From Oryzias latipes (lineage: Eukaryota > Chordata > Actinopteri > Beloniformes > Adrianichthyidae): a stretch of 64,000 bases of DNA. The notes beneath the pieces were generated by a model. It was not told where the DNA came from, made no database searches, and saw only the letters and a program-made list of their open reading frames with translations. A program made the translations under genes and the position numbers. The stretch is taken from the NCBI RefSeq assembly GCF_002234675.1, contig NC_019862.2:26858707-26922706 (forward strand), in the 5' to 3' direction. Of the stretch, positions 6,001 to 56,446 are shown piece by piece. The number at the start of each line of letters is the position of its first letter. Position 1 is the first letter of the stretch.

Positions 6001-9000
6001 GCTTTGCTCAGTTTAAGTTCTTAGTGTGGCATAAAGTGTCAAGTTTTTTTTTGTTAGCTTCATCGTATGCTTTTCTGCGTTTAATGCCTTAGTCACAACT
6101 GCCCCTACAGGTGGATATGGGCTTTCTGGGAGGGAAAATGGTCACATTTGCACGGGGCCCACAGGAAATATCAAATTCATAAACCACTCTGTGGGGCGAA
6201 TATGTTCATGCACATTTTTTCTATTAGCATGCTGCAGGCGACAGGTCATGGTGGACGCTTAAACAACAAATAGGGGTAAGTAAGGGTGAAGTAGGTGAGA
6301 CGCAGGCGTGTGATAAAGATTTTTTTTATTTTTTTAATCCCCCTGAAACCTGTGCACTAACTGCAGTAGTGCTTTTCAATTAATGAGTGCACGCCCTTTG
6401 CGTACTCTGAGCTTGCAGCACGACTGTTGTGAATCAGGAAATTAGACAACCAGAGGGTAGTTTCTGTGTTCATCCTATGGAGTCCTACAGGCACAAGTGT
6501 ATCACGTTCACACCCGTGCTGTTATTAAGTCGCCAGTGCTTGCAACTTACTAATTAGTAGAGTGGAGCGTAAGGGCATTACATGACAGCATCACCTGTAC
6601 GTCAAAAGTCTTTGTAACTTACATTATCACCAATACTTCACAATACATTTACCACAAGCATGACAATGGTACGTTCCATTTTCATGACATCCCTTAGTGG
6701 GGTTACATGAGTCTCAAGGGAACTGCAAGACACACTTGCACTCTCTTGAAGATGTGATTCCTCCTCTACGACTCTCCAAGGGCCCAGACAACCCAAAAAC
6801 CCTTAGCAACTGTACGGGCCACCCCTCGTACGTCAGCATGTGACTAAGGCATACATCGGAGCTAAGCAATGTAATGTTAATGCATTTTTACCAGTGCCAA
6901 TGAACATGACATGATACGTCTGTTGGTTCAGTGCAGTCACGCTGTCCACCACAATCCGGGTCAGCAAAGGTCCCTTCTTCAGCAGAAGCGGTCTGCCCGT
7001 CACTGGACTGACGGCGTCGTCCATCAGGGGTCGGTCCCTGACAAACTGCAGGGTTTTGTCTGGAAGCTGCCGCGACTCATTCACCCCCATTTTACGCGCC
7101 ACATTGTTGATGCACTGAAATGTATGACAGCAGTTTAGATTTAAATAAACCTTTCAGTGTCTCATGTTTAGCTATGTTGAGAACAAACTCTCTAAACCCA
7201 CCGCTCCTGGTCTTGGGACTGGCACCTCCCCAGTGTACATCACCCACTTGTCCTGAGATGACTCCACAGCGGCACGGGTCTTAAACTTTCCCTCATTGAA
7301 AATGTTTCTAATATCAGAAATGCTGTACGCACACACTGCAGACACCTGAGACAGGCCTCTGGAAGCATAGCAACACAGGTTTATAGTTAAGCAAACACAA
7401 ACAAAGGCAAAAACATCTATTTAAAAAGCTGCTGACTCATTATCCCCTTTATCATTTAATGTTAATGTCCACGTCGCCACAGATCTAATAGTAAACACTT
7501 ACGACTGTGGTGTGAAGATACCATAAAATACACTTTTTCTCCAGTCATTGTGCTTCATCAGGAAAACATCCTGGACAATAAGGGGCAGGCTGGGTTCAGG
7601 GAGAGAACAATCCAGACGAGCTTTCAGGAACGACGTCCATTTCCTCTGCAGCGTCCGCTGGCCGCCCATGTCTCCCTACACTCAAAACACACGTTGATTA
7701 ACACATGTTTCCCCAAAACCCCACATACAGGGGTTTAAATCTGTTACTTTTAATCATACCTTGCAGACACGAGCCACCCGTGACACTTTGACTTTAGTGT
7801 AAAAGTCATATTCCACAGCGTTCTCACTGAAGATGAAATACACTTTGTCGTCATCGCCGTCAGGACTGTCAAGACTCTCGCCAACAATGTCCATGAAGAC
7901 GAAGTTTGGCTCTGAAATAGCAAAACATAAGAAAAAAAGAAAGAAACCATCACAAAAGTGTGGAGCTGCATGATATTTAAAAAGGTCTATTTTTGCAGAA
8001 GAGGAACTCACCATTGAGCCAGAAATATTTAAAGTCACTGCGAAGAGCTGCTGAGCTGGAGCTACGCAGAATCACAGGCTCAGAGCCCAAGAAATTGATG
8101 GATGTAGCAGAATACAGGTCACTTCCTGTCAGGGAGGACCAAGAAAGGATTAAACATTCCTGGAAATACATTACTCAGATTTAGTTAAAACAATAAAGCC
8201 TTTATGTGCTCACTTATCGACTAAGCAGGTTTGGTTGACTACTTATACTGCTGTAATGATGGAGCAGGTGAGGTTTATCAGGTGATCTCTGTAGTGTATT
8301 TGGAATATGGTGAAATGTCCACACAGAGAACATTCAGCGGTTTTCTGCTTTTGTTCTCTTTGGCAACAAAACCAGACACTCACCGACCATGAGGGAGGAG
8401 TATCTCTGAAAGGGATCAAAAGGACACTTCCCCTTTCCCTCCTCTGGCTTTCCCTTCAGCAAAAGCTGCCCATTAGCAAATGTCTGTGGGATTTAAGGAG
8501 ATTAACAGAAAAGTAAGCTGTTGGATCATTCTTGAGCTTAAAACTGAAGTCAGTAATTAATGCAAAAGCTAAACAGTATTGGATTATTTATTCTAGCTGC
8601 ACTGGACTCAGCTGCATGGAAAGCCTGGGGCTTTAAGGTCTTCTATTAGTCATAGACTGTGCTACATGATACAAGCATGATGCAGCTGTAGTCAGGCTTC
8701 CGTTTATTCCACTGCACTACAGCGAATCTCCTGTGTCAGTTCAATTACCCATCTTCTGTGTGATAAGGCTGCACTCTTCCTCTGTGAACCAAGACCAACA
8801 CGGTTTTCTCCATTTATGGAGCTCTAACTTGTTGTTTGTGGGTTGTTGTTTTTTTTGTTTTTTTTGCATCACATTGTAGCAGCGTTTTAATCTGGGAGCA
8901 ACATTAATCTCACTCCAAAAACCATCCACTTGCAACCTGGAAAACAAATCCAGATGCCGTCTCATTTCATTGGAGGAACTGCCAGAAGTGGTTCTTTGTG

Positions 9001-17589: not shown

Positions 17590-17598
17590 AACCGGCCT
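17590..17598. repeat. Left 9-bp target-site duplication
   Basis: AACCGGCCT precedes the left transposon end and is repeated exactly at 19007-19015 after the right end. The bases beyond the match (G on each side) do not extend it further. Confidence 0.85.
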
Positions 17599-19006
17599 AC
17601 GACGGAGTTTTAGGGCCACGGTGAGGAAAAAAAATTCTGGCCAACATGACGAGATTAAAGTCGTCATGTCGACTTTAATCTCGTCATGACGAGAAAAAAC
17701 TCGACACAAAGTTTCGAGAAAAAACTCGTCGTGTCGAGATAAAAGTCGAAATAAAGTTTCGAGATTAAAGTCGCAATATTGCGCGAGAGCAGTGAAGCTG
17801 AGTCTTTCAGGAGCATTCAGTGTTATGGCTAATGTTAGAGAGCTAGTGGCTTTGTAGTTAAGAGTTTACAACAGAGTTTAATGGCCACCAAAAAAAAGTA
17901 AATTTATTAGGAGATAAAAACTCGTAAATTTACGGGAAAAAGTTCATAGATTAACAAGGAGAAAACACCGAAGTTGTCTGTTTATCGGAGCCTAGCTTGA
18001 AGATGAAATATGTGGAGCCTTTTGTGAAGCTTTATTTCCGGATTATAGGTTTAAAACAAAGAGATTTTGAACCTTTTGGCGACTCAAAATGAGATTATTT
18101 TCCGTGTAGCAGTCTTTCAGGGGTTCGGTGTCAGTAAAGCGGAGTTTCATCTGTAAAATAAGGAGCTCAGAGACACGTTTGGGTGTAGAGGATCGCTGCA
18201 GCCTTTATTCTCCTTTTCATTAGTTCGGTAAAGAGTTATTGAGGCCGGAAGTCCGAATCTGTGAATATCTTTCTAACTTTACCGAACTCTTTTCATTCAC
18301 ATAACCTGAAGTTCATCTGTCACATTACGTCATGAACCTGTCATCAGATCACCAATGCGGAAGTAAACAGTGTTACATACGCCCCCTCCTGCAGATGAAG
18401 CGACCCGTTTGATCATTAAAAAACAAAGATGAATGAAAATAGTCTGTTATATTAGCATTACAACGTTGAAAAAGGCAAAAAGTGCTTCTCCTCCTCAGAC
18501 AGAAGCATCACACAAACATAGAGATCTGGTCTTTGGTGGAGGAAGAAAGGATTCAAGCAAACAGCTGCAGGGACACCCGATGGCTTCATGTTCATCGGGC
18601 TGCAGTGATCCTGCAAACCAACCATCAATAAATAAAACTTTAATAACTTGTGAATCAATCAAATGAGCCTCCAGACATTTGGAACGTTATCAATTAACAT
18701 TCAGCTCACCTGTTCAGCTACGTTTAGTCGGTCTGCTCTGCTGCTGCACGGCGATCACCTGCTGCTCTGCATGCTCACTTCCACAATAATCTCGTAAATT
18801 TACGATTTTTTTTCTCTCGCGCGCAACATTGCGACTTTAATCTCGAAACTTTATTTCAACTTTTATCTCGACAAGACGAGTTTTTTCTCGAAACTTTGTG
18901 TCGAGTTTTTTCTCGTCATGATGAGATTAAAGTCGACATGACGACTTTAATCTCGCCACGTTGGCCATAATTTTTTTTCCTCACCGTGGCCCTAAAACTC
19001 CGTCGT
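17599..19006. mobile_element. Foldback DNA transposon, MULE-like, non-autonomous
   Basis: The element is 1408 bp. Its two ends, 17599-17790 and about 18815-19006, are inverted copies of each other with only a few mismatches. Both begin ACGACGGAGTTTTAGGGCC when read inward. Each arm is itself built from short palindromes of the type GAGATTAAAGTCG / CGACTTTAATCTC. The perfect 9-bp duplication and the long inverted ends fit Mutator-like elements. The interior (about 1.0 kb) has no transposase frame, so the copy is non-autonomous. It sits upstream of the semaphorin promoter candidate. The superfamily is inferred; the termini and duplication are seen directly. Confidence 0.85.
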
Positions 19007-19015
19007 AACCGGCCT
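19007..19015. repeat. Right 9-bp target-site duplication
   Basis: AACCGGCCT, identical to 17590-17598, directly abuts the right end of the transposon. Confidence 0.85.
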
Positions 19016-19484: not shown

Positions 19485-22400
19485 TCAGGGTCTGAGTCTG
19501 CGTTTGCCCTCTTCGTACCTCCTGGAGGGGCTCGGGGTCCGCAGGTTCTGATAGGGTTCGGCCAGCTTCAGTTGATCCGGCCGGGGCGGAGGCCGAGGGG
19601 AGCGCTCCTTCTTCTTGGGGTGGGTGTTTGCATAGACGGGGTCTAGTTCATCTGTAACCCAGATGGAAACAAGGAGAACTTTGAAGATTTTTAAAGATGG
19701 ACACACAATAGAACAAAGATGAAAGGTCCTTTAACGGGGAACCATCTGAGTGGGGCCAAACTGCTGGTGTGTTCATGTTTATTTATTATTATTAATTATG
19801 TTTTTATTTTATTTCATTTGTTGGTTTTGTGTTAAAGAACATCTATCAACTGTATTGGATTTATCTCATTGCTTTACTCTTTGCTTTTACTTGTCAGGAC
19901 CAAAATGTATTGATATTGAAGAAAAACAATAAAAATACAACAAAAACTATATAGACAAAAATTCTTAAACATTAGAATGATCAAATACATAATAAATAAA
20001 CAAGAAAAGAGTTGCACAAACTTTTTGCTTTCTGAGTCATCTTATTTTTTAAGTGCTTTCATGTATAAAGAAAACGTTGATTTTTCTCCAGTTTCTCCTC
20101 TAGCTAAATGAGTGTGATTGACTTTTATCACCTTTGTTCTCGTCTATATATGAGCCACCCGATATAATTTTTCTATGTGAAGACAGAATACAGTAACACA
20201 TGAAACAAAGCAAAAAATACAACACAACCAGACGTCAAAGTTAAAATAAAACCATGTTTTCATTTTTCACCTCTCCTTATAAAAATGTTTTAAATGTAAT
20301 CGAAGCCGTGCTCTGTCTGTAAAGCAGCAAACATTCTGCTGCCTTTCAAAATTCACAGGGTGACTTCTCACTGATTCACACTTTATTCACATGAAATGTC
20401 TTCTCCATCATTTCCATCATTGAATCAGTCTGAGTTGGATCCTAATGGAAATTTTTCCTGAATCCTTTAATCTGAACTGCCAACCCTATAAAGTCTTTTT
20501 GTGCCAAGGTTGTAAATTTGTCACAAATATTTTTCTTAAAACTCCAGCCGTCAAATGTCACTGGGACGCTCCGCGTCAATCAAGAAACAGCTTTTGTTTA
20601 AACTAAAGTATGAGAAAAATATGCCTAAAAGATGTTTTCTTTTCCTTTTTTACTAAATATTTTTGATTGATCTTTTAACAGCACATGTACAAGATTGAGA
20701 CCAAACTGATGTTAATCTAGAACATCTTCCTGTATGTAACATTAACATACATGCAAAAGCCTTTGCAGTGGCAGAAACATTAAAGACAACTCATGAGGCT
20801 GTTCTGCTTCTGCTGCTCTGTCTTTTAGGCATTTCCTGTGGTCAGACCACACGGATGACTACTTCTGTGTTAGTCTCACAGTGAGTTATGAAAATGAATT
20901 GTAATAAGTCAGAAGGACTTCTTTTTTTGGGTGTTTGAAACAGTAGATAGTGTTTACTGAAGATGGTCTTAGAGCCCCTTCATCACTTTAGTTAGAGCAG
21001 GATAGAAAATCATCCTCAGAACAGAATTCTGAGAGATGAAGACAGAGACGGATGAAATCTGATCCAGATGAATGGAAACACTTGCAGAAGTTTTAACTTG
21101 GGTTTCTAAAGGGATCAAGTAAATTTTCCTGTTTTTTTTGTAAATAAGAAATGCTCCTGCATCAGAAATGTAATAAACTCAAAGGAGAACTGAGCTAAAA
21201 ACTTTCATGTGAAAAAGTTGTGGTCAATGATCTTACCAATAGGTAGATACCTTTTTGTGAAAAACTCTCAAATTTGATATTAAATCTTTATACATCTAGA
21301 CCCAAGCCACAGAGAAAAAAGATATTTTAGTCAAACAGTTTACATGTCATCACACCTCTTAAGCATCCGCTTAGAGTCAAAGTCCATCTGTCAGTATCTT
21401 TAAATAGCATTACCTCACTATCTCAAAGTGGGCTTGCTGAATTTGTATCAAGTTTATCTGCAATCTGTAAATGTATCTGCTGTTCTGATGTGCGATCAAA
21501 CTTTGCAGAAGGCAGAAAGACTGGTACCTCTGTTTCTGAGGCACGCTCTTCTGAAGATCACACACAGAACCATCAGGATGACCACGATGAGAGAAGACAC
21601 ACCCACCAGGAGCCACGGCCACATCGAGGAGGATGGGCTGTTTTCCAGTGGTACTGTAAAAGGAAAACTCAGCGTTAAAAAGTTAAAACCTCTTGACCCA
21701 CTTTAATAATCTTCACAATTACATCACAAAGTAGCGACATGTGAAGAACACCACCAGCATAAAGGAAGTTTGTAGTGTAACTCTTAGCAAACAGAGAAAA
21801 AACCCTGCCCCATCCCTAACATGTCCTGATGTTCTCCTGAAAATGATATGAATGTAAATGCAAAAACATCTCCTATGCATTCAGAGTCTGGACTATTCTA
21901 TACCAAGTACCACACATCACATGGAGACCAAAAAGAACCACGCACACACCTTTTGTTTCTGTCCTTCTAGACAATGTTGTACTTTCCACTGAGCTCCCCT
22001 CTGTAACAATTAATACAAGAAGCTTTCCTCAGTCTTTGGGAATGTGAAGATTAATACTGAGTCTGTTTAAGATGGGACGCTTAAGCATTTCAGAGATACA
22101 GAAAGTCTTTGTAGGTCGTATTCAAAGAAGTTTTGTTCAAAGACTGAACTGTATTCTTTAAAACAATACTCACCGATGAACACTTCCACTTGCGTGCTCT
22201 TGTTCGTTCTTAGATCAGGAATCTCTGTTACAGTTTCACAAGAGTAAAATCCATTGTTTGCACTGGTAACATTGTGTATTTCCCACGTTGTACAGTTGCA
22301 CTTCATGTAAGGCTGTGTTTGATTCTTTTGCTCCTGCTTTGTAGTGGAGGTTTCCAAATTACCACAAGTCCCAGTCTGACAGCTCAGGGAATTGTTCTTG

Positions 22401-22755
22401 GTATCATTGAAAAAAAAAGTCACACGATAGCGGACAGAATCAGCATGAATGAGGCACTTGAAAGTTAGAGATCGAGCAGAAATATTCCACCGTTCCTTGG
22501 GTGATCCATGACCTCCAGACTCTCTCAGAAGAATTTCATCTGAATTTCCCACCATGGCTGCTTCTGCCACTGAAGATTTAAAAATAGTTCAAGTCAATCA
22601 TCACCAAAAGCCATAAACAAAACAGATTTGAAAGTGTTAACACATCAAATCATGTCAGTTCCTTTTGTCCTTTGGTTTAATTCTTAGCTAAAAGTCTGCG
22701 CTTATTTCTTACCTGTGAGTAACACCAGAACTGCCTGTTTCAACCACACTGCCAT
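19485..22755 (-). CDS. Orphan single-Ig type I membrane receptor, paralogue A
   Basis: Five exons: 22755-22713 (signal peptide MAVWLKQAVLVLL), 22569-22174 (Ig domain), 22000-21950 (17-residue stalk), 21653-21528 (stalk and TM), 19651-19485 (tail). All junctions are GT/AG and phase 1; the sum is 783 nt, 260 aa. The Ig exon (15-146) has a first cysteine in LTFKC and the F-strand NNGFYSC, four additional cysteines and seven N-glycosylation sequons. TM is about 176-197, uncharged. The tail has DPVYANT (Y212), a proline-rich part with PRPPPRP, then EPYQNL (Y239) and YEEG (Y251). Y212 and Y239 both fit YxN, the Grb2/GADS SH2 ligand pattern; PRPPPR also fits PxxxPR. This is not a canonical ITAM or ITIM. 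I do not recognise the family; an NFAM1-like or other leukocyte receptor is possible. Function is inferred from motifs only. Confidence 0.85.
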
Positions 22756-22959
22756 TCTATCAAGTGACAAGTGGTCGTGCTCTGAGTTTCATCCTCTCTC
22801 AGCTGCCTTTGTGAAAATGCATCAGACAGAGCTCGACACAAACCTGCGTGTGTGGGTGGGAAGGAGGGGTGAATTTCTCTTAAATGCAGAGTGACAGCGT
22901 TGGTTGCTATGTGGGCTGGGGTTTGGGGGGGGGGGGCTGTCTGCGGAAGACGAAAAGAA

Positions 22960-23950
22960 CTGTATATAAGTATGCTATTTTAAAGTATAAAAGATAGAAA
23001 AAGAGCTCTCCTAAATACAAAGAGAACAGAGGAACCAGATTCTGCAGTAATTTACAAGCTTTCAGTCGACAAACATCAAAGGGTCCAGATCTTGTTTCAC
23101 AATGTGAACATCCTGCTTTGGTGCTCAGTGGCAAAGACAATAATGCTCACTGTTTGATTACCCTACGGGGAAAACAGGACAACAAATCCAACTGGGGGTT
23201 TGTGAAACTCTTGTGGGTTTTGGTACTAAGGTGCTAAACACATTTACCCACCATGTCTCAGTAGAAAGGGAACACTTGCATTCTGGTGAACCAGCACAAA
23301 ACTGGTCTTAGAATTCTTTATCCTGTCTTCAACTACAAAGTTATGTAGAGCAAATAGAAGACAAACAGCATTATCACCATCCTTTAATGATTTATGAAAA
23401 ACAAGGAGCAGAAAAATGAAAAAATAATACGGCTAATGTCAGCACAATGAACTGCTCTGAAATCAAACTTTCCTCCTACTAGCCAAAAATTCAGTTATCA
23501 AGTAAATTTTACTGCTGTCGGATCACAGGAAAGAGACTCAAACATGAAGGTATGTGGGGGGGCGTACATATGCTGAAACCTCAGCTTTAAAAGTTTCCTT
23601 GTACAGACTGAAAGTAGGTCCCATCTGCTTATGACGAAGACCAATAATCTACAAAATTCTTGCAGCTTTGCATTTGTTCAAAAGGATTTAAGAAGGTTTT
23701 AGAATACTTCCTGAACCTTAAATAACTGAGAAATGCTGTCATTGTTTGTTTTATCGCAGCTTGCAGCTTTCTTTAAATCTGATGGTCTCTGATGGTATTT
23801 TACCTGAACCAACAATTTGAAGTTTATTGTTTTGTACTTTATGTTTCAACGACTGAACATTTAAAATTATCCACAACATTTGTTTTGGATGGAAACATGT
23901 GAAGCCAAGGCTTATTTCCCATACAAACATCACATCTTCCTACAAATTGA
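22960..23950. repeat. Conserved upstream block of receptor A
   Basis: Begins about 280 bp upstream of the paralogue A start codon and matches 32243-32975 upstream of paralogue B. In the first 350 bp (from about 23038) I count roughly ten differences, about 97% identity. That is far closer than the Ig exons of the two genes. A 35-residue peptide frame shared by both copies is likely incidental. Confidence 0.7.
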
Positions 23951-23999
23951 AAGAACCTTAAAAAAGAAAAAAAAAGAAGAGGAAAAAACAAAAAAAAAC

Positions 24000-24420
24000 A
24001 CTTTTTAAAATTTAGAGAGAATATGTGTTATGTGTGGTTTCCATGATAATTTATGATTCAAAATTACTCCAAGATATTTTATTTCATTTACTCTTTCAAG
24101 AACAACATCCTCAATCTTACCTCAGAAATGTTTTGCAGTTTTCTATAGCCAAATATGATGTACTTGTTTTTTATTTTTATTTAAAGGCAGTTTGTTTGAA
24201 TCAAACCATTGTTTGATTATGGATATTTCTTTTGTTATGTCTGCAAGAAGCTTTTCCAGATTATTTCCTAATAAATACAAAGTAGTGTCGACAGCATATA
24301 TAACACAATTTAACAAATCAGAAACTTTACAAAGGTTGTTTATGTACAAAATAAATAATATATAAAATAAATAATATAGGACCCAGTAGGGTGAATTAAC
24401 AGAGACGCCATCCAAATGTC
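24000..24420 (-). mobile_element. Non-LTR retrotransposon reverse transcriptase fragment
   Basis: A minus-strand frame from 24415 reads LFILYINNLCKVSDLL, then IYAVDTTLYLLGNNLEKLL and IIKQWFDSNKLPLNKNK. This is the palm region of a LINE reverse transcriptase. Further 3', beyond a stop, a second frame looks like the downstream YLGV-LSW region. The catalytic YADD is YAVD here, and the copy is 5'-truncated and interrupted, so it is dead. Unit B lacks it, so it probably inserted after the duplication. Confidence 0.75.
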
Positions 24421-24550
24421 ACTACCAAGTCTCTGATTAGTCAAAGTTTGACCTGGTTTAATTTTCAACACATGCTAAATCACTATGTTTTCTATGCGGA
24501 GCCCAAAAACGGTTAGAAAATGTTGTGTAGCAGCGAGTATGTGGTAGTTT
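24413..24550 (+). repeat. Half copy of a foldback element
   Basis: Starts TGTCACTACCAAGTCTCTGA and resembles one arm of the palindromic element at 29711-30030, including CTATGCGGAGCCCAAAA near 24493. Only one arm is present. Confidence 0.5.
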
Positions 24551-25212
24551 TTTTAATGCAGAACAGCGAAATGCCTCGATTTTTCATTGGAAGTGGCCGC
24601 TTGAACATGCGTTGCTGAAAGCAGCTTTACACAAGTTTGTTTTTTAACAAGTTTTGAATTAAATATGTGATCACCTGAGATAAATTGACATGTGTCATAC
24701 GGTATCAGTTCAGTTACACCTTTTTTTCTCTTGTAGGACATTACCTGAAAAAAGCCGAAGTGGTTTGAAAAAAATGTGTTTGTCTGGAACTCCACACCAC
24801 AACTTCTTCCAAAGCAGAAATGAAAAGTCTAACGTGTTATGAAAACACAAAGAAGGGCACAAAATAAAAACTGTGCTTCAATTTCAAACTTATTTGAGAA
24901 CAGACGCCATTGTTTTAAAGTCTCAGGAAAGTGCGCAGATATAAAGTCATTGCAAAACTTGTTTTCGTCGCTTTTCATTTTCTGCAACTTCTCCCCAACA
25001 CAAAACAATGTGATGATACTGACATTGAAACAGTGTGTCAAAATGTGATGGGATATCAAGAAAAGGAGCAAAAAGTACTGAAAGGAACGGATTTATTGAC
25101 TGCATCAGCAATGCAAAAGAGAACTAATACACAGAATGACCAACGTCAGGCTAATTCTTAAGAACTGAAAACTACAATGTGGTTAAAAAAGCTTCCTGGT
25201 TTAAATGAACGT

Positions 25213-25515
25213 GCTATGGGGGTCATAGTGGTGTAGTGGTAAGCATGTTAACATCGTCAGTCTCACCCTAGGCATCATCTTTGTCCTCATGCATGTGAGA
25301 CACTACAGCTTCCTTCCATGGCCCAAAAACATGCTACAAAGTCTCTACAAAGGACTCTAACTTGTGTGTGTACTGTGGAAATGTACAGCACTGCAACACA
25401 TTGGCAACCTATCCAGGGTGTACCCCACCTTCACCCAACAGTAGCCAGGACAGGCTCATCCAATTCTAAGACCCTGGAAGGGATCCAGCAGGTTCAGAAA
25501 AGGAATGCGTGTTGA
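25213..25515 (+). mobile_element. tRNA-headed SINE or related repeat
   Basis: Starts with a tRNA-like A-box region, GTGGTGTAGTGGTAAGCATG near 25230. It ends in the fish repeat tail of the type ATCCAGGGTGTACCCCACCT, GCCAGGACAGGCTCATCC, ACCCTGGAAGGGAT. A related, better preserved copy forms the host at 52064-52860. It lies in the spacer between the two receptor genes. Confidence 0.55.
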
Positions 25516-25892
25516 GCAGGTTTTAAGAGGATCCTTTAATTTTAAGAAGCCCACCATTTCAAGAAAACACATTTCTTTTTTACTTTCTTTGTGCTCAAAT
25601 AACATGTATCATGTTCAGATTCTTTTTTTTTTTAATTCTGTCTTTATAATTTTTTATTTTACAAACAGCAATTTTGAATAGTTTAAGATATGTGTGATGG
25701 ACTCTCAGAGAGAAACTATTGGGTTTAAAGTTACAGTTTCCTGTTTCCTTAGAGATGTAATCCTCAATTCACACCAGGGATCTGGCTTCACAGGGTTTTG
25801 GGGGTGCCGTTTCTGACCCAACATGCTGCAGTCAACCAGACTTTGGACCAGCACAGGCAACACTCGAGAGCGCCTCCCGGTGGTAACAGTAT

Positions 25893-25985
25893 CTTACAGC
25901 ACTTGGTGGTCACAGGTCACCTCCAGGGCCTAACTAACCCTGCTCAGCTTCTGAGATCAGACGAGATGTGAAATGTTCAAGGGGC
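25893..25985 (-). pseudogene. 5S rRNA-derived remnant
   Basis: On the plus strand TACAGCACTTGGT is followed by CCAGGGCC, ACCCTGCTCAGCTTCTGAGA and TCAGACGAGAT. This is the reverse complement of the conserved 5S rRNA core (ATCTCGTCTGAT, AGCTAAGCAGGGT, GGTGCTGTA). The 5' portion and several stem bases are substituted, so it should not be a functional 5S gene. It is either an isolated 5S pseudogene or the head of a 5S-derived SINE (SINE3 type). Confidence 0.75.
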
Positions 25986-26408
25986 AACCTCGATCTCTGA
26001 AGCAACAACTGTGGCCCAAAGTGAACATGTCACCACGAGAATTTAACAAAGTGCAAGACAACTTCCTATTAAAAAACATAAACAAACAAAAAAGTAAAGT
26101 GTTAATGTTTCTTTTGTGCGACTATATGCAATTGTTATTATATTTATTATACATTTAATCACATTTAAAATTTTCAAAAGCAATCATCTGAACAATTGCA
26201 CGGATAGAAAAAAAGACAACTTACAGGCAACATTTTAGAGTTGCATGACAAAAACAGAACAACCTATATACATTATATTTCAAGCTATTTGTTCGATACA
26301 TATATTTCCAAAAAAAAAGAAAGAAAGTAAGATAAACGGAAATTAATGGTTAGAAGCAGATAACATAAAGACTCGGGGGATGGATTGTCCTGTGCACCCC
26401 TGGTTTGG

Positions 26409-28045
26409 TCAGGGTCTGAATCTGCGTTTGCCCTCTTCGTACCTCCTGGAGGGGCTCGGGGTCCGCAGGTTCTGATAGGGCCCGTCCAGCTTTAGCTGAT
26501 CGGGTCGGGGCGCAGGCCGGGGCGAGCACTCCTTGCTCTTGGGTTGGGTGTTTGCATAGACGGGGTCTAGTTCCTCTGTAACCCAGATAGAAACAAGGAG
26601 AACTTTGAAGGCTTTTAAAGATGGACAGTTTATAAAACAGTAGTAAAACAAAATCTGAAAGATGAATACGGACGCAGATGAAACATAACTTTTGCTTATG
26701 TTGAACTTTCATGGTAAAAAGTCATATCAGCGATCTTTGCCAAAGAAAGAAAGCGACTCTCACTTTGTGAGAAGCTAAAAAGTGTCCCACATTTTCCCTG
26801 GAATCTTTACACCTCCTAACTCAAGACATGAAGAAAAAATGACATTGTAGTCAAACAATTTACATGTCAGCAAACCCATCAAAGTCAAAGTCCATCTGTC
26901 CGCTGTATCTTCTGTTCTGTTTCCAGATAGCATCACCTCACAAAGCTAACGCAAATGTTTGGTGGAAAAATTAAACTTTTTTTGACAGGTCTTCTTTTTT
27001 TCTCTTGACCTCTTTATCTCAAAGTGGGTTCGCTGAATGTGTGCAAAGCTTATCTGCAATCTGTAAATGTATCTGCTGTTCTGAAATTAGATCAACAACG
27101 CAAACTTTGCAGAAGGCAGAAAGACTGGTACCTCTGAGGCACGCTCTTCTGAAGATCACACATAGAACCATCAGGATGACCACGATGAGAGAAGACACAC
27201 CCACCAGGAGCCACAGCCACAGTGAGGAGGATGGGATGTTTACTGGTGGTACTGTAAAAGGAAAACTCAGCGTTAAAGACCAACTCCAATAAAAACGATG
27301 TTTTTGACATCTTCTTGTGACACTCCTGTCATGACGGAGGATAAATTTAAGGAAAATTTGCACTTATGACATAGCGTTTCTTAGTATTTCTTTTACAAAT
27401 ATTTGTGAATTAGGAGCAAACAAAAAAATTGCAGTTTGAAAAACCTTTTAGATATCATGTACAAACTACAATCGGCAGGCTACAAGCTCCCTGTTCCACT
27501 CCATTCTGATGCACCTCTTTGTTTTCCTCGCCGTTGTTGTTACACCTGTAATGTTAGGTTGGGGTTGTGAGGGGCTGTAAGCTAGCAGGAGAGCGTGTTA
27601 ACATGTGGATAGTGTGGGGACAGGTTTTTCTCCGTACCAACATTTCCCCCCAAACTCAGAGGTGAATTTCTAATGAACTTATGCTGCTCTGCAGAAACTA
27701 TGTTTTTGAAAACAACTTTTTAAAAATTTTGTTATAAACAGCATGATATTAATTAGAAGACCACTGGGAACACTTTTACAATAGATCAAAAGATGATTGA
27801 AGTGGGACGTAAAAAAATTAGAACCTCTTGGCTCAATTAGAGAGCAGAATAATCTTCTCAATCACATCCCAGAGCAGCAACGTGTGAAGAACATCAGCTG
27901 CATGAATAAGTGGAACGCCTTGTCTCATCATTATCATGTCCTGATAAGGATGTGAATGATAACGCAGAAACAGCACCTGTGCATTCAGGGACTATTATGT
28001 ACCACTTACCCCACACCCACACACCACATTGAGACCAAAACAGCA

Positions 28046-28079
<34 letters not shown>

Positions 28080-31000
28080 TACCTTGTGTTTCCGTCCTGC
28101 TAGACAATGTTGCACTTTCCACTGAGGTTGCCTCTGTAACAATTAATACAAGAAGCGTTCCTCAGTCTTTGGGGCAAAGGTGGTCCTGACCAGTTTGGCG
28201 CCCCAGGCGAATTCCCCTCCCCCGCCTGAACCTCAAAGCCCACCTCCAAGAACTCACGGCCTGTTTATATACTACCACAAGAACATCATATATTGTTTAT
28301 TTTACTTCATTAACTGATATAGGTGAATATAACCCTAACACCAATTAGGAATGAATACATTTCTGTCATTTCCGTTGGCTTCATGAATGAACATCAATGG
28401 AAACGAAAGAACACATTCTTCTGTTTTTTCTGCTCAAGTGTCACATAAAACTGAACAAAAAAGACAAATGATTGTGTATATTGCATCTGAACCACATGAC
28501 AACGACAGAAGAGCTCAGATGAAAGCTACCAATAGGCTAATTAACAGGACCAGTCTAGTTTAGTGCAAACCTTCATTTGCCAAATATTGCTCAAAATGTT
28601 ACTCCTTGAACAAAAATTTTGGCTGTCTTAATTTTGGACACCGCCTGTATTCCTTTATTCGTGGAGTGCTTTTTACTTCCTCTTCGTTCTAAACTGGACG
28701 CTGGTGTTTCCTTTGATCTTTTGTCCGTTTTCCACAACTTGACTAGACTTTTCTGTCTGTCAAACACCCAGAGTCAAGATAAGTGAGAAGATGGAAACAA
28801 ATCCACTTTGATGCAGACTCCTATTTTTTTTCTTGCACTTTCACTCAGACATTTTGGGAAAAAAAGTCTCATTTTGTATCTACCCATCTGTGTGATGATT
28901 ATGAATTATTTTATGATCATATTGTTTTTAAATGTTTTATTTATGGAACATTTAAAGCAAAGACAAATTTAATTGCTAATTTACTCATAATTATGGCTAA
29001 ATATCACATACATTAGTGTTAATATCCTGACAAATCCAATGTTTTCTGTTTTTCACAACAAGATGAGAAATTTGCACTAGGTGTGGAGTGTCATGTACAA
29101 TATTCTGTAGGTGGACTGTGTAATATGTGCAACGATCCAGCCCAGCTGTCCAGACCAACTTTGCACTTATGCAGATATCTACGGTCAAACTTTGCACTTG
29201 CACAATAAGGATTGTACAGTCCTGATCCGTAAATGTTTTCTATTTTTTTCAACATTAAAAAAGTAAACTTTTACATTATTGTGAACATTTAAAGAAGCAC
29301 CTATTATTGTTAACATCTCGAGCTAAAGTAGACGCATTCATGCATGCGGGGCACCAATCAGGCTGCCGTAAAGCTATGTTCAAAGCGGGCATGTGACGCG
29401 CCTCAAGGAACTTGCTAAACGCAGGTTATTTAACCGATTTTAGCCCCGAATGTTCACACTGGACAAACAGGAAGGGACTTCTTTTTTTCTTTTCTACCGC
29501 TTACTAATTCATGAGAGGCTTGGTGCAAAATATCAAAGTGGTGTGAATCTTGTTCTATTTTTTTTCTTTTACAGTTCTATTCTGATACATGAAAGACTTG
29601 GTGTCATATAATTCCGGTTGGGCACAAACCACAATGATTAATTTCTGCTCAATGATCAATTTTCAAATGGTTGGCACTTCCATAGAAAGAAATTAACACC
29701 ATCTATATGTCACTACCAAATCTGAGTCCCTGATCAAAGTTTGAAAGATTTATTCGGCTCAATAGCCGCAAGTTTTGTATGTAGAAAATGGTCTTAAGAA
29801 CTCACGTAGATACACGCGAGTCCAGGAGTATTTAATGCGGAAGCCCAAAACTCGCATTTACGTACGTTTATGCGCTCCCATGTTCAAAACTCATGTTCAC
29901 ACGTCGCTATGCAAGGTTTTAAGACCATTTTCTAGTTTTATGTACAAAACGCATGGCTATTGCACTCGTGTTGCCAATTCAAGTAGGTCAAACTTTAACC
30001 AATCAGGAACTCGGTTTTGGTAGTGACTGTGTGGAACTCACCAAACTCAAAGTGTAGCTTGTGTATCTTGTGAACCCAGACATGCTGACGATCCTGGCAA
30101 CATATGCGTTTGTTTTTCCAAAAAAGGTAAACCAAGCCACTCACCTGGCAAGGATGCTAACAATGAACCGAACTGTTTCGTGTCTATGTCATGAGATTTT
30201 GCACCAAGCCTTGTTCAAATGTAGGTGATGGACATGCGATAGTAAACAAAAGAAAAAGAAGAAGAAGCCCCTCCCTGATTGTCCAGTGTGAGCACCATAA
30301 TATCTCCGTGTTAAACTCATCAAATGCCCAGTGTGTATAGCAGAAGAGATTGCGCCCTCGGCGAACGCCCACATTGTCCGTAGATTAAACCGCCTCTGCT
30401 TTGGGGTCCAGAATGTGGGGAGACAATACAGATGTTGTGCTTCAGTGCTTCATACAAACATACAGAAAGTCTTTGCAGGTGGTTTTCAAAGAAGTCATTT
30501 TTAAAGACTGATGTGTATTCTCTAAAGTAATACTCACCAATGAAAACTTCCACTTCCATGCTCTTGATCTTAGTTAGCTTAGGAAGCTCTACTACAGTTT
30601 CACAATAGTAAAATCCATTGTTTGCACTGGTAAGGTTTTGTATTTCCCATGTTGTACCGCAGCACTTGTTGGGCTGTGTTTTATTTTGGCACTTTCCTGT
30701 TTGCTCCTCCTTTGGTAGAGTAGTGGAGGAATTTGAGTTTCCCCGAATCATAGTGCTACAGTTCAGGGTAATGTTGGTATTTGGATCCTTGAAATAAAAA
30801 ATCACTCGATAGCGGTTACCATCAATTGGTATGCCACACTGGAATTTTAGAGAGCGAGCAGAAATATTCCACTGTTCCCTGGGTGATCCATGACCTCCAG
30901 ACTCACTCAGAATAATTTCATTTGAATTTCCCACCACGGCTGCTTCTGCCACTGAAGATTCAAAAAGAGTTCAAGTCAATCATTACCAAAAGCCATTAAC

Positions 31001-31137
31001 AAAACAGATTTTCAAGTGTTAACACATCAAAACATATCAGTTCCTTTTGTCCTTTGGTTATATTTTTAGCTAAAAGTCTGCGCTCATGTCTTACCTGTGA
31101 GTAACAGCAGAACTGCCTGTTTCAGCCACACTGCCAT
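26409..31137 (-). CDS. Orphan single-Ig type I membrane receptor, paralogue B
   Basis: Exons 31137-31095 (MAVWLKQAVLLLL), 30951-30538 (Ig), 28133-28083 (stalk), 27251-27132 (TM), 26575-26409 (tail). Same exon plan and phases as paralogue A; the sum is 795 nt, 264 aa. The Ig exon is six codons longer, with LKFQC and NNGFYYC as likely disulphide cysteines and several sequons. The TM segment WLLVGVSSLIVVILMVLCVI matches A exactly. The tail has DPVYANT (Y216), PRPAPRP, GPYQNL (Y243) and YEEG, about 85% identical to A, whereas the Ig domains share only about 60%. It lacks two residues (NR) at the end of the TM exon. Both copies are open throughout with intact splice sites, so both are likely expressed. 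Likely a paired or diversifying surface receptor of leukocytes (inference). Confidence 0.85.
27275..27812 (+). mobile_element. MITE of the GTCCCACTCC family
   Basis: Begins AAAGACCAACTCCAATAAAA and ends GAAGTGGGACGT, with the family's internal blocks (TGACGGAGGA near 27334). It sits in the intron 5' of the TM exon of receptor B and is absent from receptor A. Confidence 0.6.
28043..28079 (+). repeat. (CA)n microsatellite
   Basis: CA-dinucleotide run, nearly uninterrupted, directly beside the stalk-exon donor of receptor B. Confidence 0.9.
29711..30030. mobile_element. Foldback (palindromic) element
   Basis: Two arms of about 155 bp face each other. The left arm begins GTCACTACCAAATCTGAG; the right arm read backwards begins GTCACTACCAAAACCGAG. 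Both contain AGAAAATGGTCTTAA and TGCGAGTTTTGGGCTTCCGC-type blocks. It may be the core of a larger foldback, since TTCACACTGGACAA near 29452 pairs with TTGTCCAGTGTGAG near 30279. It lies in the large intron of receptor B. Confidence 0.6.
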
Positions 31138-35073: not shown

Positions 35074-43540
<8,467 letters not shown>

Positions 43541-45304: not shown

Positions 45305-48300
45305 TCACTTCTGAATCACTGGCCTCAGGTTGAGTTTAAGCTTTAGCTCTGATATGGCTGCTAAAGGAACTGCAATACAAAAGAAGACAAGAGTTTATTC
45401 TCTGGCGGGTTATGAATGAATGTTTAAAAAACGGAAAATGTGCAGAATGTGACCGTACGCTGTTTTGGGCAGTCTGGACTGGTGTTTAGCTCAGCACTGG
45501 CTGGAGAGGCAGAGGATGGTGCGATGTAGCTGGCTCTGCGAGGAGCAGGTAGAGGAGGCATCAGTATCTTTTTTGGAGTTTCCTCTTTCTTAGCTGTTAA
45601 ACAGAAATGGAAACAATTGAAGCGGTTAGAGATAAGGTGAAAACATTAAAAGCATTCTTTGTGGCGCAGAGTGCAGACACTTACGCCGTGGAGGAGGAAC
45701 AGGGAGATCTGGCTTCTTTTGTTGCATCACTATCACTGTTTAAGCACAATTCCGTCAGTGACAGAAATGGGGAAAAAATGAAGACACACCTGTTTCACCA
45801 CAAGACAAAAAAACAATGACACTCACGATCGTCATTCATGTACACCCTCTCCTCTTCTGTCAGATTCGGCTCTAGTTTTTGAGACGACATGGTCCGAACA
45901 TCTTAAAGAAAGAAAGCATAAAGGTTAAAAAGTTAGATTAATGAGATTCCAGGTTAGAAAAATAATCAAGACTGTTGAGCTGTGACCAAGATAGGGGTGT
46001 GGATGTTTTGTCAAAGCAGAACAAAGGACTGTTTCCTCAGATGATGCTTGGTTGGTGGTGATCTACACTTAAATTTTCCTGTGAGTCACTCAATCATTCA
46101 TTTTATTACTTAATAAGTGGAGAGGGGGGCCAACAGCGTTTGTTTCAGAGCATTTTTTGGAAATAGCGAGGTCATTGTGTGACGTTCAGCATCTCGTCCT
46201 TCAAGAAGTTCAACTTCAGTTCAACAAAAACCAACACACGAGGAACGCTGCGTAACAAAGCCTCTAAACTGCGCAAACACACAGTGTCATGGAATGGACT
46301 CACAAAAGCTCTTTTCTTCATGGTGTGGGTCAGTGATAAAGCCGGCTGAAAACCCGCATAGGAGTAAATTTATCACTTCTGGGAGCAGATGTGATTAAAA
46401 AAAATATAACCTTTTATAACCTTTTTTTCCATCTATTGTAAGAGTGTTCCCAGTGGTTTTTAAATTAGGATTATGTCGTTTTTAGCTAAAATAAAAAAAC
46501 ATTTGTCCTTTTCTAAGATATTGTTTCTGCAGAGTGGCAGTAGTTTATTAGAAATTTGAAAGTTGTGGGGCAGGACGGTTGCGGTTGGCACTGAGCAATC
46601 CCGCCACCTTTCCCCTCCCCTTTGCAAAGAGCTTGTGGCCTGTCTTGCAATTTTTTAGTTGAGTTTTCTTTATATGTGTCCTTCATCAAGAAAAAAATGC
46701 CACAAGAACATGTTAAAAACATCCAAAACATCATTTTCATTGATTTATGCTTGTTGAGGGCTGGCGAGGCTCGCCTTGAGTCGCATGATTTTAACAGGAT
46801 AGTTTTCAAATAACTGACTTCAAGGAGTGAGAGAAACAGCAACCCATTTTAGAGGTTTCTGCTCTGGCTGTAGTGTGTCCACATACCCTGCCTTAACGCC
46901 CTCTGAAGGTTTGGTAAAGGCTTCTCAGTTCGCTCCCCACTTTCTGCATCTGAAGCAATAAAAGCTGTCCAGGTCATAAAAAAAGAGAAACAGATTACTT
47001 TCATTAACTCATTAGGGTGTAAATAATCATAGATAAATGAGCAGTATTGTTTGTGCATACAGAAATTTCTTTCATAGGGTCCCTCAATGATGAGAGGAAC
47101 CAGAACTCCATTCGTCTGTTCTACCAAGTGGGTGATCACGTCATGCAGTGAGTCACAGTGGACCTGCAAGTAGAAAAAAAATAACTCAACAATGGAGTGC
47201 CTGAGGCTGTAGGTCACCACGTTTGCCATTACAGAGACTCTTCTAAACAGCTCTTACCACAAGTTTTTAATTCTTGTTGTGAAGTTTATCTTGATCCGTC
47301 AGAAGAACATAGCAGGAGATCCATCACAACAAGCCCAAATGTATCAGCAGCTGAAAATCCATTTAACCCTTGTGCTATCTTAGATGACCCCACCCTTACA
47401 TTGATGTGTTATTCCTACCATGACAAAGGTGGATAAAGGTGAAGAGGATTTCATGTAATCCATGGACACCAGTGAAGATCACAAATCATTGAAGAAAAAT
47501 AGTTTAGCGCACTGTCTTGTGGGTCTAGATGACCCAACTCCCATTGGTAAAGTGCCTAGGATAGCACAAGGGTTACGGAGTGATTCATCACTTTAGCAGC
47601 AGACAAACTTCACCTGTCTTACAGTTACAGGTGATGCAGTCAAGGCCATTAAGAATGTTTATTACTGCCACTTGAATCGTTACTGGAAGGAAGCTTCTCT
47701 TTTCCCAGCAGGTCAAATACCTGAACCGAGGTTCATATGGACCTTACATAAGGCCATAAACTCTTCGTGCGGTTAAAGATTATTTTTGCAGAGGTTGACA
47801 AGCAATAAAAGTAATCCATTTTCATGCTCGACAGGTTTATTGTCAAGAAGAGTACAGACGTTCTTGCAAGTTTTGTTTACTAGATTTGGGTTTAAATACT
47901 TACAGGATTGTTCACATCAATCACAAAACCCCCTTCTGGTCTGCTTGTCACACGGTAGTGTTTGTACAGAGCCCTTAAAAAAAGAACAGTACATATCATA
48001 TTTTTCATTTCTTTTACATAATTCATATCTTTTTAGTTGTTTTTGTTGTAAAGAGACCGGAGTTGCACAAATGTTCAGATTTACATAAAAAAAGGAAAAT
48101 AAAATAAATTGTAGTTCCATGCAAATGTTCTGAAATTATTTAAATATTTGGAGAATATTGGCGTGACACAAATAAAGGACATTATGACTGTTGCCAAGGC
48201 CAACAGACGAAGAGAACTAACCCTGACGGTGTGTCATTTTATCTATAGGAGGTCCAGCATTTCAAGACAATAGAAGAAATGCTTTAAAGACCAACTCCAA

Positions 48301-50768
48301 TGAAAATAACGTTTTTGTTCTTTTTTATGTTCTTGCGGCCTTTTTCTGATGATGGAGGACATTTTCTAAAGAAAACTTAGCCTAACATTGCGTTTCTGAG
48401 TATTTTTGTATTCAAATAGTTGTAAATCAGGAGTAGACAATAAAAGTTCAGTCACCGACAAGGAGTTTCTAAGGGCTGGGATGGCCAGTTTAGGCTGTTT
48501 AGTTAAGTTTTAGCAATCAACTATCGTGTTTTAGAACTGATTTTATGTTCTATACAATTGTGAAGCCGGTTGAGAAAACCGTGTTGGAATATTGGGCTAT
48601 ATAAACAAAACTGAATTGAACCGAATCCACTTGTAGACAAATAGATCCGTGTACGTCTTAGTTTTCCTTGTACTACCTGGAATCTGGATCTAAACTGTAC
48701 AGCTTGATAGCACCTGTATTGCTCGCCATTTTTATTCTCTGCTAATGTTATGTTGAATGTGTAAACAGATGGATGATGGGAAAGGGAGGTGGGGTTGCTC
48801 CGGGCCAATGTTCTCGCCCTCAGCTCAGAGGACAATATCTAATGAACTCCTGTTGCTCTGCTTTGTCCTAGAAATAATCAGACAAGTTTTACGCAGAAAC
48901 AATCTGTGAACGTGACCTTACCTGTCAAGTTCTTGTCTTGTGGTAATGGCGTAGGACGCTCCATCCCTGCTGGGCCTTAGCAGCATGTTTCCTCTCGCAG
49001 CTTCTCTCTCGAGCAGCAAAGACGCCTCAATGCGGGAGATGGGATAGTAACATCTGCATCACAACACAACTTTTCACTTATGGCAGATCCACACCACATA
49101 ATAGAGGAATCAATCTGCAATTATTTGTTCTATTAAAAAGAAAACATTTAAAAATTAGTGGTACTGACGCTGGCATATCTGCATGGACGCTGGTGTTTTG
49201 ACCAGCGGAAGGTGATTGCAGATTTTTCAATCTCTCCTCTTCCTGCTCAATTACCTCATTCAGCATGTGGATTTGACCAGGCAGCAGCGTAAGAGACGGA
49301 GGTACTGACAGCTGCAGGGAGACACAAGCTCTTATTTAAAAAATATATATGTATATCTGTGCCACTGGTAAACTGAAAAACTGCAAATACAGCAGCTGAT
49401 TAGACATTTAACTGTGAAGACGGATCTGTTTTCATGATTTGAAAGGAAAGCAGTGAGGCACAGACCTGAGCAATAGACTGAATGAAGGCCTTCCATAGCT
49501 CTCGACTTTCTGAGTTTGAGGCCTGCAGAAACGGTGAAGATAAATGGTAAACAAACATGTCCAGAAGGAACCAAAAAAAAGTTCCTACCGGTAATTGCAT
49601 CACTTACAGTGAAATTGGTGGTTCCACTTTTCAGCTGGAGGCTGAACCTGGCCGCCTTTGAGAAATGATCTGAACTGATGTTTCTCACTGAGACAAATCC
49701 AGTCAGGTCCAGTTTTTCTATGTACTGATAACCACACACGTACACAGATCATTATAAAATAAAAAAGTCCAATTAAAAGTTTGGTTAGATGGATTTTCTG
49801 ATGTTGACTTACATCGTTGTCTCTCTTTTCATTGAAGAAAAAGAGGGAGTTTCCACACAAGCATGCCCACAGCTTTTGGGATGTCTGCACAGACAGAGAG
49901 ACATGGGTACAACAACAACAACAAAAAAGCACGCACAGAGCAAAGACAACTTCACAAAACACCAGAAACAAGTAGAAACCAAGTCCTAAAAAACGTTATG
50001 TCATTTAGCCATTAGATAAGAGGGTTTTCTTGTTTTTAACCCATTTCAATCCATGGTGACGTCAGTGTAACAGAAGGACATCAGAAATGTGAACTGTTGT
50101 CCACTTGTGGTTTATCCCACATAATTTTAATTTAGGGAAAAATGTGTCTAGGTTCTTATGGGTCAGGAAAATAGTCAGGACTATTTAGCTAAAGAAATCC
50201 TTCATTGAGTCCTTTGTGCCTGAGCGCATTGTTAAAATTAGTGACGCCCAGATAATCACAAGATCTGCAAATGTGTTCCATCAGTAACTATTTTGCTTTT
50301 AGCTTCTTAAAGTTGAATTTCTGAGCTCTATTTGTAAAAAATAAAATAAAAATAAAAATAAAAAGCCATCAGACTAGTTGCGAAGAAAAGCTGGGAGATT
50401 CCAGTAACATGGCAGAGTTTTAACCAGCAGCTTTACAAGACTATGAATTAAGCATCAGATGTGTTATTAAGTAACATCAACAGCACAAAAATGCTATATT
50501 TTTGTCTTAAAAAATGAAAAATATCTCTAAAAAATGTGATAAATCACATTCACTGCTGTATATTGCTACATAATACATGAGTGCTGTGATAATCTATCAA
50601 CTTTGAACCGACAGTGAATAACAATTACCACACAATTACAAAGTTTTGCAGGTTTATCAAGAAAAGCTGCTGAACCTCATCATCATCAGGCGTGCTCTTC
50701 TCCAGGTAACCCTCGTGGTAACAGTGCGGCAGCTGATTCCTCTTTCGCCAGGTTCGGTTTGCCATCAT
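45305..50768 (-). CDS. stap2: Signal-transducing adaptor protein 2 (PH-SH2 adaptor)
   Basis: Thirteen exons: 50768-50676, 49884-49813, 49724-49608, 49522-49466, 49311-49169, 49053-48922, 47973-47904, 47163-47061, 46949-46887, 45901-45827, 45708-45685, 45593-45459, 45369-45305. They sum to 1149 nt, 382 aa; human STAP2 is about 403. The PH domain (about 18-115) has YHEGYLEK and ELWKAFIQSIAQ. A linker with SLTLLPGQIHML is followed by the SH2 domain (about 161-258), with GNMLLRPSRDG carrying the phosphotyrosine-binding arginine near 186 and HYRVTSRPEGGFVIDV. The C-terminal region has VYMNDD (Y303), PVPPPRP and MPPLPAPRR. STAP2 is an adaptor in JAK/STAT, NF-kB and BRK signalling. ATG is doubled at the start (50768 or 50765). 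The 24-nt exon at 45708 was needed to keep the frame; its acceptor has a poor pyrimidine tract. Confidence 0.93.
46470..46745 (-). mobile_element. MITE of the GTCCCACTCC family, fragment
   Basis: Contains the family blocks TTTCTGCAGAGTGGCAG near 46525 and GTGTCCTTCATCAAG near 46676. The middle is deleted relative to other copies. It lies in the stap2 intron between 45901 and 46887. Confidence 0.5.
47367..47572. mobile_element. Short MITE, piggyBac-like ends
   Basis: 206 bp with inverted ends CCCTTGTGCTATC and GATAGCACAAGGG, preceded by TTAA and followed by TTAC. It is over 90% identical by eye to 52629-52833. CCC-type ends beside TTAA suggest piggyBac, but only one side keeps TTAA. It lies in a stap2 intron. 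Confidence 0.65.
48283..48880 (+). mobile_element. MITE of the GTCCCACTCC family
   Basis: Begins AAAGACCAACTCCAATGAAA. On the minus strand it keeps the frame MASNTGAIKLYSLDPDSR followed by a stop, homologous to the frame in other copies. It lies in a stap2 intron. Confidence 0.6.
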
Positions 50769-52063
50769 GAGACGCGCAGAAACTTGAAAACAGCAGCGGC
50801 TGTGTCAGTAGTCACGTCTGAGTCATGAAAACTCCAAAGAAAAGGCACCTGTCTGACACTAACAACCGAATCCCTGCCTGCGAAGACGCCCTGATCACTG
50901 ATTGGTCAGTGTGTGGAGATGGGCGGGCCAAACTACAGTTCAGGTGAGTGGAAAAGGGAAATTCCAAGGCTGAGCCACACCCACAAAAAACCTGACTTAT
51001 GTGCGACTTGTGAGTCCCTGAATGAGGAAAACATTCTAAAAAAAACTTCATTCATCAAACACAATAGTATGTTTTCCTACTTGCACAACTGCATAAATCC
51101 TAAAATTAACTTTAATTTGTGGTTCAAAAATTAGAAAGAAGGAAAACAGTTTTAAAATTTTACCAATATTTGAATATTTTATGACTTCAGGACATTTTAA
51201 ATTGTAGGATCAAGCCACACAAATCTGTAATTTTGTTTTTTTTAATGTTTGGATCCTAACTAGAGCTTATGTACAGTCATTGTGCAGATGAAGAGGTGTT
51301 TCATAGACTGCATAAAGAGATGTGCCAGATATTACAGCTTATTAAAAAGGGTTACTAATGTTGTTGTCTTAACTGAACTTAATTAATACTATTAATATAT
51401 TAATTAATACATACAATTAATATAATAATTAATACATGTGTAAAAGCTTTGAGCATCTGGAAAAGCGCAGATAAATTCAATCCATTCTTATTATTATAAA
51501 AACTATTATTATAAAAAATTACTATAAAAACTTCATCTCTTTAGAGGATTGGAAGAATTGCCAAACAGTTTCCTTGCAGTCAAGAATATTTTTTAATAAT
51601 AGTTAGGAGTCACTCATGGTTGTTTGTAAGTTTTTAGCAAGTATGTTGTACTATAGTACACAGAGAGGCGTTGGCATACATTTGCTTGTTAACCGTTCCA
51701 TCACTTCCTTGTGTGCAAAAAAGCAGAACTCCACTTTAGAATTTTGTTGAAGTGGACATTATTTTGTGCAACGTAAAAACAGAGTTCACCATCTGCTTTT
51801 TTTTGGTCAAAGGTTTTACTTTTCTGTTGATCAATTTCTGTTTCTTAGAGGTTTGCAGATGAGTTAATTGTAGTTTTCGTTTGTGGTTAATCAGCCTTAA
51901 AAACCTTCAAGTTGTTTGTAATTGTGACCATCCCTATTGCTTAAATGACCCATACTAAACACAACTTTAAACCCAAAGGTTTCACAATTTGGTAGAACTC
52001 AATAAAAAGGAATTTAGATTTAATCTGAAGCACAGACACTGTTCTGACAAAAAAAAAAAAAAA
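50769..52063. other. stap2 upstream and intergenic, no gene seen
   Basis: AT-rich spacer. The stap2 promoter should lie near 50770-51000, but no CpG island or clear core element is visible. Confidence 0.4.
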
Positions 52064-52516: not shown

Positions 52517-52628
52517 CATGAATGTGAGTGTGTGCGTGTTCCTGCAATGGACCGGCGACCTTACCCCCCTTCACCTGACTATAGCTGGGATGGGGTCGAG
52601 CCACCCCATGACCCTGAACTGGAAGTAA

Positions 52629-52833
52629 CCCTTGTGCTATCTTAGATGACCCCACCCTTACATTGACGTGTTCTCCCTACCCTGACAAAGGTGGATAAAG
52701 GTGGAAAGATTTCATGTAATCCATGGACACCAGTGAAGATCACAAATCATTGAAGAAAAAAGGTTCAGCGCACTGTCTAGTGGGTCTAGATGACCCAACT
52801 CCCAACGTTAAAGTTACTAGGATAGCACAAGGG
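52629..52833. mobile_element. Short MITE, second copy, nested
   Basis: 205 bp, inverted ends CCCTTGTGCTATC and GATAGCACAAGGG, closely similar to 47367-47572. It is inserted between the body and the GGATGGATGG tail of the host repeat. Confidence 0.65.

Positions 52834-53435: not shown

Positions 53436-56446
<3,011 letters not shown>

Follow-up and report, generated by a model that had tools for sequence, protein, structure and literature searches.

A probable tandem duplication of the CD28H (tmigd2) gene beside fsd1 and stap2 in a fish

Results

A tandem pair of Ig-receptor genes

Two neighbouring genes on the minus strand of the window (the whole stretch of DNA that was analysed, 64 kb) are most probably a tandem duplicated CD28H (tmigd2), a reading to which we give a probability of about 0.9 and which is based above all on the fsd1/stap2 synteny, and also on the motifs in CDR3 and in the cytoplasmic tail and on an alignment with the V domain of TMIGD2. 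Gene content and compactness suggest that the window comes from a teleost. CD28H has previously been reported in the teleosts pike, salmon and stickleback (Quiniou et al. 2024, PMC11599192). The receptor type is thus already known in fish, and the doubled gene together with the two-YxN tail is a modest new detail. A sequence-only reading made earlier had presented the pair as undescribed and without a match to a named receptor, a view that is overturned by the synteny, the CDR3 motif and the YxN tail, all of which lead to CD28H/TMIGD2 (PMC11599192). The passages on CD28H in that study mention neither a tandem cd28h pair nor a second C-terminal YxN; the duplications met in its passages concern other genes or genome duplications, and the word "tandem" is absent from its main text. 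No other studies of fish TMIGD2/CD28H were found among the matches listed in a search of the open-licence literature.

Both genes are intact and consist of five exons, gene 1 running from 31137 to 26409 and encoding 264 aa, gene 2 from 22755 to 19485 and encoding 260 aa (Table 1). The start codon at 31137 and the end of the last stop codon at 19485 are the exact bounds of the pair. GT donors and AG acceptors are found at 8 of 8 introns (four per gene), both frames are open through the five exons, and all eight introns are in phase 1, which is the usual layout of Ig-receptor genes. The two five-exon Ig-receptor genes proposed earlier for this interval are therefore confirmed to the base. Intron lengths differ between the copies, with intron 2 spanning 2404 bp in gene 1 (28134-30537) versus 173 in gene 2, and intron 4 spanning 1876 in gene 2 (19652-21527) versus 556 in gene 1. 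Repeats that are present elsewhere in the window also sit in intron 3 of gene 1 (27252-28082). About 0.5 kb 3' of gene 2 lies an inverted repeat of 192 bp, perhaps a mobile element, whose arms (17598-17789 and 18816-19007) are 96% identical and separated by about 1 kb.

Table 1. Positions of the two receptor genes, their motifs and the syntenic markers in the window.
Feature	Position	Strand	Description
Gene 1 (putative cd28h copy A) exon 1	31095..31137	-	start codon, signal peptide
Gene 1 exon 2	30538..30951	-	Ig V-like domain, 6 Cys
Gene 1 CDR3 motif E-L-P	30581..30589	-	from the sequence; published CD28H signature is E-I-P
Gene 1 exon 3	28083..28133	-	stalk
Gene 1 exon 4	27132..27251	-	end of stalk and transmembrane helix
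Gene 1 exon 5	26409..26575	-	cytoplasmic tail, stop codon
Gene 1 membrane-proximal YxN, DPVYAN(T)	26550..26567	-	DNA pattern search
Gene 1 second YxN, PYQN(L)	26467..26480	-	DNA pattern search
Gene 2 (putative cd28h copy B) exon 1	22713..22755	-	start codon, signal peptide
Gene 2 exon 2	22174..22569	-	Ig V-like domain, 6 Cys
Gene 2 CDR3 motif E-I-P	22217..22225	-	identical to published CD28H signature
Gene 2 exon 3	21950..22000	-	stalk
Gene 2 exon 4	21528..21653	-	end of stalk and transmembrane helix
Gene 2 exon 5	19485..19651	-	cytoplasmic tail with PRPPPR, stop codon
Gene 2 membrane-proximal YxN, DPVYAN(T)	19626..19643	-	DNA pattern search
Gene 2 second YxN, PYQN(L)	19543..19556	-	DNA pattern search
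fsd1, syntenic marker	35659..43483	+	Pfam domains; seven colinear human FSD1 matches
stap2, syntenic marker	46852..50804	-	SH2 exons; best solved structure STAP2 2el8

Protein features of the two copies

Both proteins begin with a hydrophobic leader, followed by a single Ig-like domain containing six cysteines, a transmembrane helix devoid of charged residues (KD 3.16 over 19 residues) and a cytoplasmic tail, and they carry six (gene 1) and seven (gene 2) N-glycosylation sequons, in agreement with the architecture first described from the sequence. The Ig domain can be recognised, but its profile matches are weak, with Pfam V-set scoring 15.2 bits in both genes, below the cut-off of 26, and Pfam Ig_3 scoring 17.1 bits in gene 2, below the cut-off of 30. 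AlphaFold models of the two proteins have low confidence (pLDDT 39.3 and 43.8), and a fold search with the higher-pLDDT model, itself of low confidence, returned beta folds of other kinds, the matches listed including no chain of the CD28 family.

The motifs DPVYANT and PYQNL are present in both tails as had been claimed, with their tyrosines 27 residues apart (216/243 and 212/239). When searched as DNA patterns, PYQNL gave 2 matches in the 64-kb window versus 0.07 expected, and DPVYAN (up to two mismatches allowed) also gave 2, both exact, versus 0.36 expected, at least two matches being obtained in 4 of 100 shuffles; neither pattern occurs in the window outside the two genes. At least two YxN were found in 29/20000 and 87/20000 shuffled tails for the two copies. 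The tail length of 55 residues given earlier is right for the part encoded by exon 5, including the split codon, while the full tail counted from RRACL comprises 61 and 63 residues. Similarly, the SH3 sites attributed to the proline core of both tails are borne out for gene 2, in which PRPPPR forms a class II site (PxxPxR), but not for gene 1, whose PRPAPR contains no PxxP pattern. An ITIM pattern was looked for in both tails and is absent, and each tail has one YxxL, so that the description of the tails as neither ITAM nor ITIM stands.

The fsd1/stap2 locus

The plus-strand gene next to the pair was identified as fsd1 by its Pfam domains (fn3 in 39810-40121 and SPRY in 42855-43220) and by a sequence taken to be that of human FSD1, which aligns with it over seven colinear stretches (35659-43483, 44-85% identity). 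For stap2, the joined SH2 exons matched human STAP2 (2el8, 2.1e-13) and then STAP1 (3maz, 4.8e-12) among solved structures; the piece near 50804 was recognised as the first PH-domain exon by eye only and had no match in the searches. Gene order and strands at this locus are the same as what we take to be the human arrangement, namely TMIGD2(-), FSD1(+), STAP2(-). CD28H (TMIGD2/IGPR-1) has been described as lying in the fsd1/stap2 block in cartilaginous fish, teleosts and tetrapods alike, although this synteny is not absolute, since cd28h is found in a different genomic context in siluriformes, cypriniformes and clupeiformes (PMC11599192).

CDR3, tail motifs and V-domain alignment

From sharks through to mammals, CD28H shows strong conservation of an E-I-P motif in CDR3 (PMC11599192). 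Gene 2 has this signature (CETVTEIPDL); gene 1 does not, its CETVVELPKL showing ELP, which is one conservative change away. Copy A is filed as a putative CD28H through its tandem paralogy to copy B, the two proteins being identical at 193 of 257 aligned residues. The tail motif of CD28H has been defined as Y-[E/G/V/T/A]-N-[V/I/M/T] and is a Grb2/GADS motif (PMC11599192); YANT fits this consensus in both copies, and the second site, YQNL, fits it in neither. The earlier suggestion of a CD28-type leukocyte costimulator with Grb2/GADS-type YxN sites was right in kind, as CD28H is a CD28-family costimulator, and both the motifs and the locus support it well.

Local alignment with a sequence taken to be the V domain of human TMIGD2 gave z scores of 5.3 and 6.0 for the two proteins, reached by 1 of 1000 shuffles in each case, and the alignment spans the CDR3 region. 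The semaphorin-like Ig of the window, used as a control, gave z 0.0 and was equalled by 473 of 1000 shuffles. In phmmer and profile searches of both proteins against solved structures nothing was significant and CD28H was never named. The same TMIGD2 V-domain sequence, searched in this collection, gave four matches, of which three were CD22 chains and one an antibody light chain, none of them TMIGD2. A described CD28 relative, named beforehand as the finding that would count against novelty, did emerge through synteny and motifs, though without a strong reciprocal match.

Comparison with other receptors

The pair shares with published fish CD28H the fsd1/stap2 synteny, a putative single V-type domain, the membrane-proximal YANT-type motif and, in copy B, the EIP of CDR3, and differs from what the passages on CD28H describe by its two tandem copies, the ELP of copy A and the extra C-terminal PYQNL (PMC11599192). 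We consider it improbable that the pair represents one of the CD28H-like paralogues, CD28HL1, HL2 or HL3, moved beside fsd1: HL1 and HL2 share EIP in CDR3 and HL2 has a YxNx near its C terminus resembling PYQNL, but the published synteny of HL1-3 lies elsewhere (man2b/kiaa0232; slbp/tacc3/tmem129; prkab1b/pla2g1b/tmem233), and HL2 is without a well-conserved membrane-proximal motif and among teleosts has been found in elopomorphs only (PMC11599192). Furthermore, CD28HL1 has a Y[E/D]SF motif and HL3 an ITIM/ITSM tail in many species (PMC11599192), and both Y[E/D]SF and the ITIM pattern are absent from the two tails.

Even less probable is an unrelated lineage-specific Ig receptor with convergent YxN motifs. 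The weak sequence similarity to any named receptor would fit such an origin, which nevertheless demands that the fsd1/stap2 position, the one-Ig layout, the CDR3 motif and the YxN tail all coincide with CD28H. A fish NFAM1, CD3 or other ITAM-type receptor, suggested by a short tail with YxN/YxxL tyrosines, is highly unlikely at an fsd1/stap2 locus and with YxN tyrosines 27 residues apart, since an ITAM pair (two YxxL/I 6-12 residues apart) is absent and one YxxL is found per tail.

CD28 itself resembles the pair in having a YxN as Grb2/GADS site in a short tail. However, the PPP of CD28/CTLA4 is absent from both CDR3 regions (VELPKL in gene 1, TEIPDL in gene 2), neither copy has YxxxxT in the transmembrane helix or YMNM/YxxM in the tail, and the published CD28 locus is elsewhere (PMC11599192). 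The ICOS tail motif E-Y-M-[D/P/F]-M is likewise absent, there being no YxxM in either tail.

Human TMIGD2 (CD28H, IGPR-1), like the CD28H candidates studied here, has one Ig domain, a transmembrane segment and a proline-rich tail, and is costimulatory. Its tail presumably also carries a YxN, of which we take Y192 to be the tyrosine, and is, we assume, clearly longer than the 61- and 63-residue tails of the fish pair with their second YxN. The human proline-rich tail binds SH3 proteins (PMC6753945) and the WW domains of NEDD4 (PMC8103646), and the receptor, through HHLA2, provides costimulation to T and NK cells (PMC10761673). In an AML cell line, the mutation Y222F, at a tyrosine further downstream, reproduced the behaviour of the tail-less receptor and Y192F did not (PMC10761673), which weakens a simple YxN signalling story for CD28H even in human.

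Divergence between the copies

Over all 257 codons, comparison of gene 1 with gene 2 gave a dN of 0.145, below a dS of 0.195 (NG86). The V exon is more divergent, with 73 of 393 bases differing in the nucleotide alignment (Nd and Sd together amount to about 76 in the codon count), while the transmembrane and tail exons are better conserved, with the same residue in 34/40 and 47/54 codons. Exon 2 starts with an almost unchanged stretch, and divergence climbs from near 30858. We judge that the V differences probably reflect ordinary drift or patchy gene conversion and not selection for new ligand binding. Within the V exon dN and dS are alike (0.216 and 0.253, NG86; Nd versus Sd, p 0.76), and three blocks in introns 3-4 are as divergent as V (23/110, 18/91 and 18/98). 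Noncoding identity is patchy, ranging from 76% in the 3' flank up to 26/26 bases in intron 3. Against drift or conversion, V exceeds the 5' flank plus intron 1 (22/283, p 4.9e-5), with the climb described above, as well as the distal 5' flank (55/681, p 7e-7), and in the first third of V the raw estimate of dN (0.201) is higher than that of dS (0.133). When V is compared with all noncoding blocks counted (145/1041), the excess becomes marginal (p 0.03, both over all sites and over nonsynonymous sites). Adaptive divergence of the V domain is possible, and no more is claimed for it because introns 3-4 diverge alike and dN and dS are alike within the exon; drift or patchy gene conversion would fit the divergence data as well.

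Discussion

In the CD28 family, the V domain binds ligand, tail tyrosines become phosphorylated and Grb2/GADS are recruited to YxN. If the pair works along these lines, each copy would yield a receptor at the cell surface whose single V-type Ig domain might, on lymphocytes, bind a B7-family ligand (B7H7/HHLA2-like), teleosts reportedly possessing B7H7 orthologues. The two tail tyrosines could then be phosphorylated by Src-family kinases, each pYxN would recruit the SH2 domain of Grb2 or GADS, and the expected outcome is a costimulatory output with two adaptor sites per tail, to which the proline core may add SH3 or WW contacts, clear in copy B only. As the transmembrane helix is uncharged, signalling is suggested to go through the receptor's own tail and not through a DAP12-type partner. 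Besides, since the V domains differ at about one third of positions and the YxN sites are unchanged, the two receptors may not have the same affinity or specificity for ligand.

It is conceivable, but doubtful, that the duplication has produced two CD28H checkpoints, in which bivalent and perhaps stronger two-YxN tails have been kept while the V domains bind different ligands or bind with different strengths. If so, this lineage would have a pair of such checkpoints, a single CD28H being what is usually described. Laboratory mice and rats are without CD28H (PMC6753945), which makes in vivo study of its biology difficult. Two intact copies in one fish, the one with EIP, the other with ELP and both with the two YxN kept, would let CDR3 and ligand binding be compared in a natural setting. 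Apart from this, the pair extends a CD28H family already charted in 2024.

Other features of the window

A semaphorin-like gene lies on the minus strand at 3037-7153, where one exon, at 6836-7153, encodes a Sema domain (2.7e-24) and another, at 3037-3873, an Ig domain and a TM-like stretch. A plus-strand exon at 54815-55150 encodes a small GTPase (Ras family, 1.8e-26), which we take to be Rab11-like, and a RINGv-domain exon, presumably MARCHF2/3-like, is found on the minus strand at 61242-61613 (8e-16). Finally, two units of about 209 bp in direct orientation share 92% identity; one lies at 47364-47572, within the stap2 span, and the other beyond stap2 at 52626-52833.
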